Shown in pieces: positions 9,009 through 37,032 of a stretch of 60,272 bases of DNA. The stretch is from Candidatus Cloacimonadota bacterium. Its GTDB lineage: Bacteria; Cloacimonadota; Cloacimonadia; JGIOTU-2. The notes beneath the pieces are model-generated. The model saw nothing but the letters and a program-made list of their open reading frames with translations, was not told the origin of the DNA and did no database searches. The stretch is taken from positions 1 to 60,272 of the forward strand of contig JAYEOL010000026.1 of assembly GCA_034722995.1 (NCBI GenBank), in the 5' to 3' direction. A program made the position numbers and the translations under genes. Numbering within the stretch: the first letter of the stretch is position 1; every line of letters begins with the position of its first letter.

Positions 9009-9260
9009 TTACTACTAAGAGCATAATAAAGTTTACCCCGTAGGATAACATTTTGTATCCTACGGGGTAAACTTTATTTCTAAGAATTATAATGGAGTGC
9101 GAAAACGAGTTGCGATGAAATCGCAAGGAACTTTTCGCCTATGCAATATACTGAAAGTTCGTATTCACGATAAATCGGGAATCCTCGTTTCAGCACTCCA
9201 CTTTCACTCAGTATCATGTATTGAAGATAGATGCAAACAGTTTTATGCACCCAGTAATAA
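9009..9260 (-). repeat. MITE-like element family 1, copy B
   Basis: Same family as 5162-5469 but in reverse orientation. Inner arms GGAGTGCGAAAACGAG (9094-9109) and CTCGTTTCAGCACTCC (9184-9199) frame a variable centre. One end carries a perfect 19 bp hairpin with ACCCCGTAGGAT / ATCCTACGGGGT arms (9028-9046 and 9057-9075). It fills the gap between the oligopeptidase stop and the pncA promoter. Confidence 0.8.
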
Positions 9261-15242: not shown

Positions 15243-16121
15243 CTATTCCCCGAGATTCTTTGCAATAATTTCTTTCTCAGTAAAGGCAACATGCCTGCTG
15301 GTTGAATATAGCATACCTTCCTGTTCTGATTTAATTTCAGATATTCTTTTCTTACAAATTGAGAATAAATTAGGATTAATTTCAAAACCGATATAATTTC
15401 TTTTAATCTCCTGACAAACTACCAAAGTTGTGCCTGTGCCAGCAAAGGGGTCTAAAACTAAATCCCCTTCGTTTGAACTCGCTTTAACTATTCTTTCAAT
15501 TAACTTTTTAGGTTTCTGGATAGTGTGTAAATATTCTCTACTCAATAATTCTTTTGATTTATAAGTAAGTTGTTTAATATCACCCCAAACATCTCCAGGG
15601 TTTTTACCTCTTTCATTGAATTTGGTTTTTCCAAATTCACCATTTACGACTGAAGGAACATTTTCGCATCTTTTTCTATGAGTTAATTCTACTAATTGTG
15701 GCACTCTTATTTCATTCAAATTAAAAGTTTTGGCTTTGCCTTTTGTAAAATAAGCAATTATATCATAATTATTTGTATAACTAATTCTTCCTTGTGCCAA
15801 TCTACTTGGCTGATACCAAACGATTTTTGAATTTAATGTCAGATAAGGTTTATAATCAATAAAATCAATACAGTCAGGTTTACCGAAAAGATAAAATGAC
15901 CCACCAGTTTTCAACTTTTTAGATAAAATTTTTATTAGTTGAAGATTAAATTCCTGGATATTTTTTACTTTACCCCGTTGGATATATATCTTACGGGGTT
16001 TATCCCATTTTTTTTCAGTAACACCATAAGGTCCATCACAAACTATTAGGTCAATAGATTCATCTTCTATCTCTTTAATCAATTTGAAGAAATCCCCCAG
16101 AAAAATTTCATTAATTTTCAT
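15243..16121 (-). CDS. Beta-class DNA (adenine or cytosine-N4) methyltransferase inside the atp operon
   Basis: A 292-residue site-specific DNA methyltransferase with the beta-class order: catalytic motif first (D29-G-P-Y-G, where most members have DPPY), then the S-adenosylmethionine motif near the C-terminus (HTIQKPKKLIERIV, DPFAGTGTT at 224-232, NYIGFEINP). It should methylate a base in a short DNA site. No restriction endonuclease is adjacent, so it is an orphan. It lies between atpG and atpD, an unusual position. Residues 41-51 (KPRKIYIQRGK) are encoded by a palindrome at 15971-16000 of the same ACCCCGT family found in the MITE-like copies. The Gly in place of the first Pro occurs in some relatives, so I do not call it inactive. 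Confidence 0.88.
   Translation of the reverse strand: MKINEIFLGDFFKLIKEIEDESIDLIVCDGPYGVTEKKWDKPRKIYIQRGKVKNIQEFNLQLIKILSKKLKTGGSFYLFGKPDCIDFIDYKPYLTLNSKIVWYQPSRLAQGRISYTNNYDIIAYFTKGKAKTFNLNEIRVPQLVELTHRKRCENVPSVVNGEFGKTKFNERGKNPGDVWGDIKQLTYKSKELLSREYLHTIQKPKKLIERIVKASSNEGDLVLDPFAGTGTTLVVCQEIKRNYIGFEINPNLFSICKKRISEIKSEQEGMLYSTSRHVAFTEKEIIAKNLGE
15971..16000. repeat. In-frame ACCCCGT-type palindrome in methyltransferase gene
   Basis: ACCCCGT (15972-15978) pairs with ACGGGGT (15993-15999) around the palindrome GATATATATC. This is the hairpin type seen at 9028-9075, 11487-11528 and 46259-46328, here with a short loop and in frame. Confidence 0.7.
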
Positions 16122-18678: not shown

Positions 18679-19209
18679 CTAAAATTCTTTCTTAAAATTC
18701 AATAAGCTATTTGTTATTGAAGCATTTATTGCCAGATTTTCATTATACACTAAAAATCCACCTTTTATTCTCTTATCAATATTATGTTTAAGATGCACTT
18801 CACCTGATACATAGCTTTTAACAAATTCATTGATTTTCTTTAAAGTTTTAGAGTCAATTGGGTAAGCGGTTAGCAATTGGAAATCATAAATATTTAATCT
18901 TTGATGAATCTGGCTGATTATTTGATGACAGATATCCTTTAAAAAAAATATTCTATCAGCATCAACAAGTACTTTCAAAAAATCATTAAACCTATCACTA
19001 ATTTTCAGCCCTTCTGCAAGTTTTTCTAATACCTCTTTCTTGAATCTATTTTCAGCAACGGGCGAAATCAAAAATTCTTCTATTTGCTTGTTATCCCGCA
19101 AGAAATTCGTAAGAATCTCTACTTCATTTTCTAATAACTTTAGCTCATCAGACTGAAAAGTTTGTACTAATGCATTAGAATACCGTTTTGCAATAATATT
19201 CCTAATCAA
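18679..19209 (-). CDS. atpH: F-type ATP synthase delta subunit
   Basis: 176 residues. The N-terminal helical domain (IAKRYSNALVQTF..LLENEVEILTNFLRDN) and the C-terminal GGFLVYNENLAINASITNSLLNFKKEF, which contacts the b subunit, identify the peripheral stalk subunit. The start is a TTG that overlaps the atpF stop (TTGA). The AAGGA ribosome binding site 6 nt upstream belongs to a palindromic repeat lodged in the end of atpF, so this gene's translation start seems to depend on that repeat. Confidence 0.93.
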   Translation of the reverse strand: MIRNIIAKRYSNALVQTFQSDELKLLENEVEILTNFLRDNKQIEEFLISPVAENRFKKEVLEKLAEGLKISDRFNDFLKVLVDADRIFFLKDICHQIISQIHQRLNIYDFQLLTAYPIDSKTLKKINEFVKSYVSGEVHLKHNIDKRIKGGFLVYNENLAINASITNSLLNFKKEF

Positions 19210-19748
19210 CTTTCATCCTTCGTCCCGATTGAATCGGGACTATGGAGAACGGGCTTTCTCTCCTTTGATTGCTTTCTCCCAGTTTTTATAAGACTGTTTA
19301 TCAGTTTAATATCATCTTTTTCTGTAAGTTTTTTCCCTATGATTTTATCAGTAAGTGAAACAACAAACTCTCCAATTTCTTTTTCAATACTCTTCTTCGC
19401 TTTTTTAACTTCACTTTCCATAATCTTTTGGGTTTCAGCCATTAAGACATCTTTTTCGGTATTAGCCTCTTTCAGTATTTGTTCTCCAGTAAGCTTGGCA
19501 TTAGTAATAGCTTCATCTCTAATTTCTCTTGCTTCTTTTCTTGCTTTATGCAACATTTCCTTCTGTGATTTTAACATCTTAGCAGACTCCTCTTGACCTC
19601 TTTTAGCATTTTCTAAATCGTCCTTAATTTGTTTCTGCCTTTTATTAAGGAAACTAACAAGTGATTTATACAGCAGTTTTTTCAATATTATAAGAAGCAA
19701 AATAAAGTTCAAGATGACTAAGATCAAAGTAAAATCAATACTTATCAT
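19206..19748 (-). CDS. atpF: F-type ATP synthase b subunit with palindrome-encoded tail
   Basis: 180 residues. One N-terminal membrane helix (TLILVILNFILLLIILKKLLY) is followed by a long charged coiled coil (residues 30-150) ending near FVVSLTDKIIGKKLTEKDD, the usual end of b subunits. The last ~15 residues (KPVLHSPDSIGTKDES) look foreign. They are encoded by a repeat centred on GTCCCGATT-G-AATCGGGAC (19222-19240) that also occurs upstream of the nitrilase gene. The tail is dispensable in family terms. It is the single b-type gene here (no b'). Confidence 0.93.
   Translation of the reverse strand: MISIDFTLILVILNFILLLIILKKLLYKSLVSFLNKRQKQIKDDLENAKRGQEESAKMLKSQKEMLHKARKEAREIRDEAITNAKLTGEQILKEANTEKDVLMAETQKIMESEVKKAKKSIEKEIGEFVVSLTDKIIGKKLTEKDDIKLINSLIKTGRKQSKERKPVLHSPDSIGTKDES
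19211..19255. repeat. TTCTCC-hairpin-CGAAGGATGAA repeat inside atpF
   Basis: On the minus strand: GTTCTCCATAG, palindrome GTCCCGATTGAATCGGGAC (reading as TCCCGATTCAATCGGGA), then CGAAGGATGAA. The intergenic copy at 36178-36221 on the plus strand shares TTCTCC-x-TAG and CGAAGGATGAA around a different hairpin. Provides atpF codons and the atpH ribosome binding site. Confidence 0.7.
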
Positions 19749-19775: not shown

Positions 19776-20012
19776 TTATACTGCAAAAATTAAAAGCAAA
19801 GCGATAACCAATGAATATATTCCTGTTGATTCAGAAACAGCCTGGCCAACCAACATTGTTCGGGTTATCAGTCCTGCATTTTCTGGTGAACGGGAGATAG
19901 ATTCGCATGCTTTACCTGCTGTAAATCCTTCGCCAATACCAGGTCCCAAAGCACCCATACCCATACAAAGTCCTGCTCCTAAAAGAGCAGCTGCTCTAAT
20001 TATTTCTGACAT
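19776..20012 (-). CDS. atpE: F-type ATP synthase c subunit, single hairpin, two-carboxylate type
   Basis: 78 residues forming one helical hairpin. The ion site can be read by alignment with Ilyobacter tartaricus c (Q32, E65, S66): here they are Glu28 (GPGIGEGF), Glu61 and Ser62 ([14 protein letters not shown]). Glu in helix 1 gives the two-carboxylate arrangement described for the sodium-driven Fusobacterium nucleatum rotor. Sodium coupling is therefore likely but not proven. It follows a second c gene encoding a three-hairpin protein; the two would share one ring or be alternatives. Confidence 0.95.
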
Positions 20013-20136: not shown

Positions 20137-20865
20137 TTATGCTACAAAAATTAACAAAAATGCAACCACTAAAGAATATATTGATGTTGATTCTGCAACA
20201 GCAGCACCTACAAACATTGTTCTCGTTAATAATGGGGATTGTTTAGGAAATTTGCTTATTGACTCAACTGATTTGCCAGCTACAATACCTATACCAAGAC
20301 CAGGACCAAATGTTCCAAATCCCATAGAAAGTGCTGCACCTAAAAATGCAAAGCATTTTGCGATACTATTTCCAGTAGAAGTAGAATATAAAAGTAAAAT
20401 TGATACAACCAGAGCAAAAACCGCAGAGGTTTCGGATAAAGCTTGTCCAATAAGCATATTAGCAGTAAGAAGTTTAGCTTCTCTTGGCTGTCTCCCAATC
20501 CCTTTGCAAGCTTGACCTCCAGTATAACCAATTCCTAAACCTGTTCCAACGCATCCAGTTCCTATTACTAAACCTGCAGCAAAAAGTGAGGCTACCGTCT
20601 GCCAACCAACATTAGAATCTCGCATACCTCCAAATAAAAGAAGCATCGCAACAACAAGAGCAAAAATTGCACCTGTTTCTGTTATTGCCTGGCCAATTAG
20701 CATTGTTCTTAATAGAGAATCACTTGCTTTAGGCTGTCTCATTAATGCTCGTGTAGCATTGGCAGCTATAAATCCTTCACCAATCCCTGCACCAACTGAT
20801 GAGATGCCCACGGCAAGTGCTGCACCTAAATATGATGCAATAGAAATAAAATCAACTAAATTCAT
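20137..20865 (-). CDS. atpE: F-type ATP synthase c subunit, three fused hairpins (six helices)
   Basis: 242 residues made of three tandem F-type c units, about 1-80, 81-160 and 161-242. Each keeps the helix-2 carboxylate: Glu63 (GQAITETGA), Glu145 (GQALSETSA), Glu225 (GAAVAESTS). Helix-1 ligands differ: unit 1 has Glu30 (GAGIGEGF), while units 2 and 3 have Ile112 and Ile192 at that position. Unit 3 also loses the Gln before the Glu (Ala221). Multi-hairpin c subunits are known mainly from archaeal and V-type ATPases; in bacterial F-type enzymes the two-hairpin c1 of Acetobacterium woodii is the usual example. It sits between atpB and the single-hairpin atpE. Confidence 0.93.
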   Translation of the reverse strand: MNLVDFISIASYLGAALAVGISSVGAGIGEGFIAANATRALMRQPKASDSLLRTMLIGQAITETGAIFALVVAMLLLFGGMRDSNVGWQTVASLFAAGLVIGTGCVGTGLGIGYTGGQACKGIGRQPREAKLLTANMLIGQALSETSAVFALVVSILLLYSTSTGNSIAKCFAFLGAALSMGFGTFGPGLGIGIVAGKSVESISKFPKQSPLLTRTMFVGAAVAESTSIYSLVVAFLLIFVA

Positions 20866-36027: not shown

Positions 36028-36080
36028 ACATTTTATAATATTACTCAAATTTCGCATTAAGATATTATAAAAAGTTGTAA

Positions 36081-36145
36081 GCATTCCCAATCCCCAATTC
36101 AGTTGAGGAGGGCTTCTGTCTCCCGATTTATCGGGAGCCAAGACG
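36081..36145. repeat. Two adjacent palindromic repeats (CCCCAATT type and CCCGAT type)
   Basis: 36081-36115 is the engB-tail repeat; immediately next to it, 36116-36145 is GTCT-CCCGATTTATCGGG-AGCCAAGACGG, the repeat found in frame at 13061-13090. They stack in the tldE-nitrilase gap. Confidence 0.7.
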
Positions 36146-36177
36146 GATAGGAATAAGTTTGTTTTTTCCTTTGTGTC

Positions 36178-36221
36178 CATTCTCCGTAGCAGTAGGACTG
36201 CTATTGCGAAGGATGAACCTT
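36178..36221. repeat. TTCTCC-hairpin-CGAAGGATGAA repeat, intergenic copy
   Basis: ATTCTCCGTAG, hairpin AGCAGT..ACTGCT, TTGCGAAGGATGAA. Same flanks as the atpF copy at 19211-19255. It appears to split a CCTTTGTGTCC...CCTTTGTGGTTA repeat, as if inserted into it. Confidence 0.6.
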
Positions 36222-36243
36222 TGTGGTTAGAAAGGATTTTCAG

Positions 36244-37032
36244 ATGAAAGTAGGATTTTTACAATTTTACCCCAAATTGTTTCATGAGAAACATAATCTG
36301 GAAAAAATAGAAACATTACTGCAAGGATGTAAGACAGATTTGGTGGTTCTTCCTGAACTTGCTACGAGTGGCTATCTTTTCACAAATCAAAAGGAGATGG
36401 AACCACTCTCTGCACCTGCAAAATCAGGCAGAATCGCTGACTTCTTTAGAAACATTTCAGCAAGAGAAAATTGTAGTATAGTAAGTGGCTTTTTAGAAAA
36501 AGAAGCTAATAGTTTTTACAATTCACAAATGTTAGTTCAACCGAATGGAAAAATTGAGATATATCGGAAAACCCATTTATTTTTTGATGAAAAAGAACTT
36601 TTCAAACCAGGCAATACTGGATTTAATATTTTTGAATTTAATGGAACAAAACTTGGCTTGATGATATGTTTTGATTGGATTTTCCCGGAATCGGCTCGTA
36701 CTCTTGCCTTGAAAGGAGCAGAAATCATCTGCCACTCTGCTAACTTAGTTTTGCCTTTCTGCCAGAAAGCGATGATAACCCGTTCTGTTGAAAATAGAAT
36801 TTTTACTATTACAGCAAACAGAATCGGGACAGAGAAAAATGAAACACAAGAATTTACATTTACTGGAATGAGCCAAATCACATCACCAAAAGGTGAAATA
36901 TTGGCTCAAGCAAAAGGGAATGAAGAGGTTTTAGAGGTAGTTGAAATTAATCCAGCGGAAGCAAGAGATAAATTTGTTACTGAAAAGAATGATATTTTTG
37001 CTGATAGAAAAAGAGAGTTTTACAAGATATAA
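36244..37032 (+). CDS. Carbon-nitrogen hydrolase (nitrilase superfamily)
   Basis: 262 residues from ATG 36244 (MKVGFLQFYPK), which has AAAGGA 7 nt upstream; an in-frame ATG at 36223 is less likely. The catalytic triad is intact: Glu38 (VLPELATSGY), Lys109 (YRKTHLFFDE) and Cys142 (LGLMICFDWIFPE). Cleaves an amide; close to omega-amidase/N-carbamoyl-type members, but the substrate cannot be named. The gene ends a three-gene plus-strand block and faces a minus-strand gene. The 195 nt gap before it is almost entirely palindromic repeats. Confidence 0.9.
   Translation: MKVGFLQFYPKLFHEKHNLEKIETLLQGCKTDLVVLPELATSGYLFTNQKEMEPLSAPAKSGRIADFFRNISARENCSIVSGFLEKEANSFYNSQMLVQPNGKIEIYRKTHLFFDEKELFKPGNTGFNIFEFNGTKLGLMICFDWIFPESARTLALKGAEIICHSANLVLPFCQKAMITRSVENRIFTITANRIGTEKNETQEFTFTGMSQITSPKGEILAQAKGNEEVLEVVEINPAEARDKFVTEKNDIFADRKREFYKI

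Follow-up and report, generated by a model that had tools for sequence, protein, structure and literature searches.

In the genome of a Candidatus Cloacimonadota bacterium, a dispersed palindrome resembling REPs and RPEs has probably inserted directly 5' of atpH, displaced the native Shine-Dalgarno sequence (SD) of this gene and offered its own AAGGA as a replacement. We give this reading a probability of about 0.7. The palindrome is of a known kind, and the replacement of an operon SD is an unusual variant of what such elements do. The locus would provide a natural before/after case of a mobile palindrome at a ribosome-binding site of a core operon, with an empty site and filled sites at three depths; two lineages in which the old signal has decayed can be seen alongside another that has cleanly reverted. 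Rewiring of translation by a small repeat could thus be tested directly through two natural alleles. The window analysed here is a stretch of 60,272 nucleotides from a 1.89-Mb, 97%-complete MAG (G000), and all genomes compared are MAGs. At atpF/atpH, the relatives compared were G001, G002, G003, G005, G008 and genus g4, among 15 loci of the family. G003 is the closest, with 93% identity for AtpH and 92% for DNA across 3.5 kb of the locus.

The atpF/atpH junction and its empty site

Both genes are on the minus strand. The b subunit gene atpF (19206-19748; PF00430, 1.5e-21) encodes 180 residues, and its TGA stop codon overlaps, as TTGA, the TTG start codon (19207-19209) of atpH (18679-19209), the gene for the F1 delta/OSCP subunit (PF00213, 2.9e-30). 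This TTG is conserved in the family, being found at 14 of the 15 loci, with or without the repeat. The junction reads ...CAAAGGAGAGAAA|GCCCGTTCTCCATAGTCCCGATTCAATCGGGACGAAGGATGAA|AG-TTG, where GCCCGTTCTCCATAGTCCCGATTCAATCGGGACGAAGGATGAA is a 43-bp palindromic element (19212-19254, minus strand). In G003 it reads ...CAAAGGAGAGAAAAG-TTG; one 43-bp gap is all that separates the two sequences in length over the 3.5 kb, the junction being intact otherwise, and deleting positions 19212-19254 of the window regenerates the G003 junction sequence. By this comparison the insertion point is placed between AA and AG, two nucleotides 5' of the atpH start codon. The putative native SD is the AAAGGAG now located at 19260-19266. 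The same AAAGGAG lies 7 nt 5' of the TTG in G003, and (A)AAGGAG is found 7-8 nt 5' of it in the repeat-free G003, G008 and genus g4. The insertion moves this sequence by 43 nt, to about 50 nt upstream, and brings the AAGGA of the element itself (19216-19220) to 6 nt from the TTG. The first-pass annotation had already attributed this AAGGA to a repeat; the scarless empty site in G003 and the outgroups with native AAGGAG at the expected spacing bear this out.

Because the insertion changes the frame of atpF, the b subunit is extended by about 14 residues, ending at the TGA of TTGA: AtpF ends in PVLHSPDSIGTKDES in G000 versus VD in G003. The annotation had derived roughly the last 15 codons of atpF from the repeat, which holds for 14-15 codons. 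The tail is KPVL[HR]S[PS]DSIGTKDES in G000 and G005, where AtpF has 180 residues, and the protein is 164-169 residues long in relatives in which the repeat is absent or untranslated. Neither PF00430 nor the conserved columns extend into the tail. It is missing from the outgroups, contrary to what a native tail conserved across distant relatives would show, although three other relatives share the insertion. Both differences between the G000 and G005 tails change amino acids (H/R and P/S). Nothing thus points to conservation of the tail as a peptide, and selection at the protein level was rejected on this ground. The junction can tolerate 43 additional nucleotides since the element combines an SD-like AAGGA end, an arm complementary to the SD and stop-free frames.

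A dispersed palindrome and its relatives

The inserted sequence belongs to a family of dispersed imperfect palindromes with the motif TCC[AG]TTCTCC-hairpin-GAAGGATGAA. Its minus-strand part at 19212-19249 (TTCTCCATAGTCCCGATTCAATCGGGACGAAGGATGAA) can be compared with a plus-strand copy at 36180-36217 (TTCTCCGTAGCAGTAGGACTGCTATTGCGAAGGATGAA). The pattern TTCTCC-N(8-30)-CGAAGGATGAA has 16+16 matches in G000 versus 0+0 in a backwards-read control, which confirms the annotation's view that a repeat is present at atpF/atpH with a second copy near 36178. Matches were counted as hits, a few of which are inflated by overlapping readings of nested copies, and merging these readings leaves about 25 distinct sites. 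GAAGGATGAA alone gives 63 genome matches versus 7 in the control. Within the 60-kb window only, CGAAGGATGAA with 2 mismatches is found at chance level (21 versus 19.5), so the non-chance origin of the atpF/atpH copy rests on the genome-wide count and the empty sites and not on the count in the window. The family pattern is found 49 times in G001, 16 in G002, 4 in G003 and 27 in G005; elsewhere among the genomes of the family it is nearly absent, with scattered matches in a few genomes of another one.

Delimited copies start with [TC]CC[AG]TTCT[CT]C and finish with GAAGG[AG]TGAA. The shortest form (30 bp), TCCATTCTCCGTAG-TA-CTACGAAGGATGAA, is imperfectly palindromic, and its 14-nt arms act as terminal inverted repeats with 3 non-Watson-Crick positions in DNA folds; the core can also be written TCC[AG]TTCTCCGTAG-TA-CTACGAAGGATGAA. 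It is often enlarged by an extra central hairpin (TCCCGAT..ATCGGGA, GCAGTAGGACTGCTACTGC) or by a second copy of the element, resulting in nesting. At atpF/atpH the predicted central hairpin, GTCCCGAT-TCA-ATCGGGAC, has an 8-bp stem (19222-19240, minus strand); its GATTCAATC core is also present in G001 and G005 and is degenerate in G002. The left and right flanks of the copies are complementary to each other above shuffled pairs (mean 6.3 versus 4.9, with 4 of 2000 shuffles as high), a score fed in part by nested copies, and this suggests that palindromes are favoured as targets. Most positions are intergenic, and about 2 of 25 sites are coding. A search of Rfam over the whole window returned tRNAs only, the repeat matching none of its RNA families, and a literature search on palindromes in Cloacimonadota found nothing relevant.

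Two further empty/filled pairs fix the ends of the element. In L028 (672-697; G000:C70), a 30-bp copy lies in frame within a long ORF and exactly 30 bp are missing in G003. The reading frame through this copy matches that of the insert in atpF (..T-K-D-E-S). A Pfam search of the long ORF gave no match; by eye, we take it to be SprA-like. The other pair is the 42-bp plus-strand element TCCATTCTCCGTAGCAGTAGGACTGCTATTGCGAAGGATGAA at 36176-36217, filled in G000 (L012) and empty, CTTTGTG^CCTTTGTGG, in G001 (L094). All three pairs are scarless and none has a target duplication. At six further orthologous sites (L002, L013, L017, L025, L026 and L027), G003 is without the element, and the ends are unreadable there because the whole intergenic region differs.

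Exact ends, scarless sites, nesting, hairpin-like targets and no target duplication are compatible with single-strand (Y1/HUH) mobilisation. Scarless empty sites without target duplication also recall the IS200/IS605 type, a likeness that fits such a process and does not prove it. Seven Y1 transposase (Y1_Tnp) loci are present in G000. None of the 7 has copies of the element on both sides in this 97%-complete MAG, which speaks against Y1 loci as mobilisers flanked by the repeat. L030, a degenerate Y1 copy, is preceded by one element at a distance of about 150 nt.

We regard the element as most likely a mobile palindrome of the REP/RPE type that is not autonomous. Its dispersal, its nesting and its empty and filled sites make the selfish nature proposed in the annotation plausible. 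Rickettsia palindromic elements (RPEs) and the Wolbachia palindromic elements are dispersed palindromes that occur as in-frame insertions in protein genes, conserved housekeeping genes among them (PMC2229807, PMC10969869). The likeness to RPEs lies in the in-frame insertions with empty sites in relatives, as in the L028 ORF and, for G000 and G005, in the translated tail of atpF. However, RPEs measure about 105-150 bp versus 30-43 bp here, and the present element is mostly located between genes, belongs to another phylum and would have replaced an SD rather than just added residues. GTAG REPs and REPINs are imperfect palindromes of 20-40 bp with tens of copies, mostly intergenic and some intragenic (PMC3733652, PMC3116915); size, copy number, location and the presence of Y1 transposase genes in G000 recall the GTAG REP/RAYT system. 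These REPs have an unpaired GTAG at one end (PMC3733652), whereas the GTAG of our element is central and pairs with CTAC, and its ends are TCC[AG]TTCTCC and GGATGAA. CGTC REPs have a CGTC tag at one end (PMC3733652), and the 22 delimited copies here have TCC...GAA ends instead (CCC...GAA at atpF). MITEs such as Correia/NEMIS, ERIC and YPAL are small, non-autonomous and bounded by terminal inverted repeats, form in-frame fusions and affect adjacent mRNAs (PMC2229807). The element shares with them its inverted repeats and its empty and filled sites but is much shorter, and target-site duplication is absent at three pairs. Finally, Beggiatoaceae carry dispersed TAACTGA repeats just 5' of start codons, where in many genes they take up the ribosome-binding region (PMC4679880). 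As excerpted, that source describes tandem heptamers with little SD character and no palindrome, and makes no empty-site comparison in an essential operon.

A proposed replacement of the Shine-Dalgarno sequence

Three relatives more distant than G003 are filled at the identical point. G001, G002 and G005 read ..AG-CCCGTTCT..GAAGG[AG]TGAA-AG-TTG with a related core, and GAAGG[AG]TGAAAG-TTG is common to the four carriers. In G001 and G002, AtpF stops 53 nt 5' of the TTG, before the repeat, and the native SD is altered to AAGGTAAG and AAATGAG, respectively. The AAGG core of the repeat is kept in all four. We propose that the ancestor of this genus and its sister genus received the element between the AA and the AG preceding atpH, and that ribosomes may now recognise its AAGGA. 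This recognition would be helped by the TTCTCC arm, which would pair with the old GGAGAG and mask the native SD, while the central hairpin would leave the new SD single-stranded. The native SD would then have decayed in two carriers with the AAGG of the repeat maintained, and exact loss in G003 would have brought back both the native SD and the VD-stop overlap. In RNA folds of G000 and G005, GGAGAG pairs with UUCUCC, the central hairpin forms and AAGGA is unpaired; those of G001 and G002 are less clean, the new SD not being fully open. It is from position, conservation and decay that we infer the hand-over.

The annotation went further in making the repeat part of translation coupling, a view that the comparison does not support. 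The atpF/atpH overlap and the geometry of coupling are also seen in the repeat-free G003, G008 and genus g4, and the overlap is lost in the two carriers in which AtpF stops upstream. G003, having lost the repeat, has a normal junction. The overlap is thus not maintained by the repeat. The same observations feed the strongest rival explanation, according to which the repeat is an inert passenger, its AAGGA is idle and atpH is translated by termination-reinitiation at TTGA or through other features. The stop/start overlap is found with and without the repeat, and, as G003 shows by having lost it, the repeat is not required. Moreover, 14 of the 39 long ORFs in the window have no SD, even with starts picked to favour one, so that SD motifs are not universal here and atpH could initiate through coupling alone. 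For G000 and G005 this makes an inert repeat with pure coupling a serious rival. In G001 and G002, however, where the overlap is gone, it is the native SD that has decayed and the AAGG core of the repeat that is still in place, and we consider an idle AAGGA unlikely overall.

The history of the insertion bears on a second alternative, in which the junction is a hot spot hit in several lineages by independent insertions or gene conversion, with G003 ancestrally empty. In the gene tree, G000 and G003 are sisters (100/100) within a G000/G001/G002/G003 clade (100/100); the placement of G005 versus G008 is weak, with G005 joining the genus clade to the exclusion of G008 at 65/37. The minimum number of state changes on this tree is 2, and one ancient gain followed by one scarless loss in G003 is the history that it favours. 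The loss in G003 could also have come about by deletion between short A-runs. The emptiness of the nearest sister would suit a hot spot. So would the inserts of G000 and G005, which differ at 2 of 43 sites (41/43 identical) against flanks about 74% identical (binomial 2.5e-4), a similarity that could reflect gene conversion or repeated insertion instead of simple descent. But the point, the orientation, the leading GCCCG and the GATTCAATC-type core are alike in all four carriers, other copies within each genome have different cores, and at least three gains would be needed versus one gain and one loss. Separate arrivals are, for these reasons, quite unlikely. The hairpin and AAGGA could also be native, as an ancestral attenuator or translational enhancer of atpH that resembles or has seeded the repeat family. 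Their conservation in four lineages, the hairpin directly 5' of the SD and the high G000-G005 identity would be expected of such an RNA. It is very improbable nonetheless, as it is missing from all outgroups and from the sister G003, the same sequence is present at some 25 sites, one of them within an unrelated gene for which an empty counterpart exists, G002 has a degenerate hairpin and Rfam has no match. An assembly artefact or a chance resemblance, conceivable since all genomes are MAGs, is hardly credible with an insertion at the same base in four independently assembled genomes and a family of 32 matches versus 0 in the control.

A second repeat family and other features of the window

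The second copy in the window had been reported as intergenic at 36178-36221. A copy is indeed there, as the 42-bp element described above, but its setting is different: it is nested within a longer repeat, CTTTGTG...CTTTGTGGTTAGAAAGGATTTTCAGATG. The copy is not simply intergenic, as the host repeat bears the SD and the start codon of the next gene. The end of this repeat (36218-36246, plus strand; CCTTTGTGGTTAGAAAGGATTTTCAG-ATG) provides both for a carbon-nitrogen hydrolase gene (PF00795). The family to which it belongs, CTTTGTG..CTTTGTGG[TC]GAAAGGATTTTCAGATGAAA, brings along both an SD and an ATG. Allowing at most 3 mismatches, GAAAGGATTTTCAGATGAAA has 32 copies in the genome and 0 in the control. 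In 15 of 30 copies (loci L102-L131), an ORF of 90 or more residues starts at this ATG, the genes being unrelated. At the hydrolase gene the repeat is present in G000 and G001 and absent or unrecognisable in G002, G003 and G005. These observations suggest that atpH may not be the only gene of this genome with an initiation region provided by a repeat. It is tempting, although doubtful at present, to regard dispersed repeats as portable translation-initiation modules, one replacing the SD of atpH and the GAAAGGATTTTCAGATGAAA family providing SD and start codon to some 15 or more unrelated genes at their 5' ends. If so, movement of repeats would exchange initiation regions between genes.

Additional dispersed repeats are found at 36076-36165, 5' of the 36176 copy (GCATTCCCAA..; TCTCCCGATTTATCGGGAGCCAAGACGGATAGG), with many matches in G001, G003 and G005. 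The intergenic space there is largely made up of stacked palindromic repeats with fast turnover. The atp operon has two c-subunit genes, one of 242 residues with three fused ATP-synt_C repeats (20137-20865) and an ordinary one of 78 residues (19776-20012); a tripled c subunit is unusual in a bacterial F-type operon. A gene for an N6/N4 DNA methyltransferase (PF01555, 15243-16121) separates atpG from atpD and has the orientation of the operon, and a gene for a 23S rRNA intervening-sequence protein (four-helix bundle, PF05635, 21730-22098) lies directly upstream of atpB. Finally, a perfect 23-nt inverted repeat with an 8-nt loop is found at 9025-9078 (AATAAAGTTTACCCCGTAGGATA), and a shorter palindrome related to it at 15972-15999.
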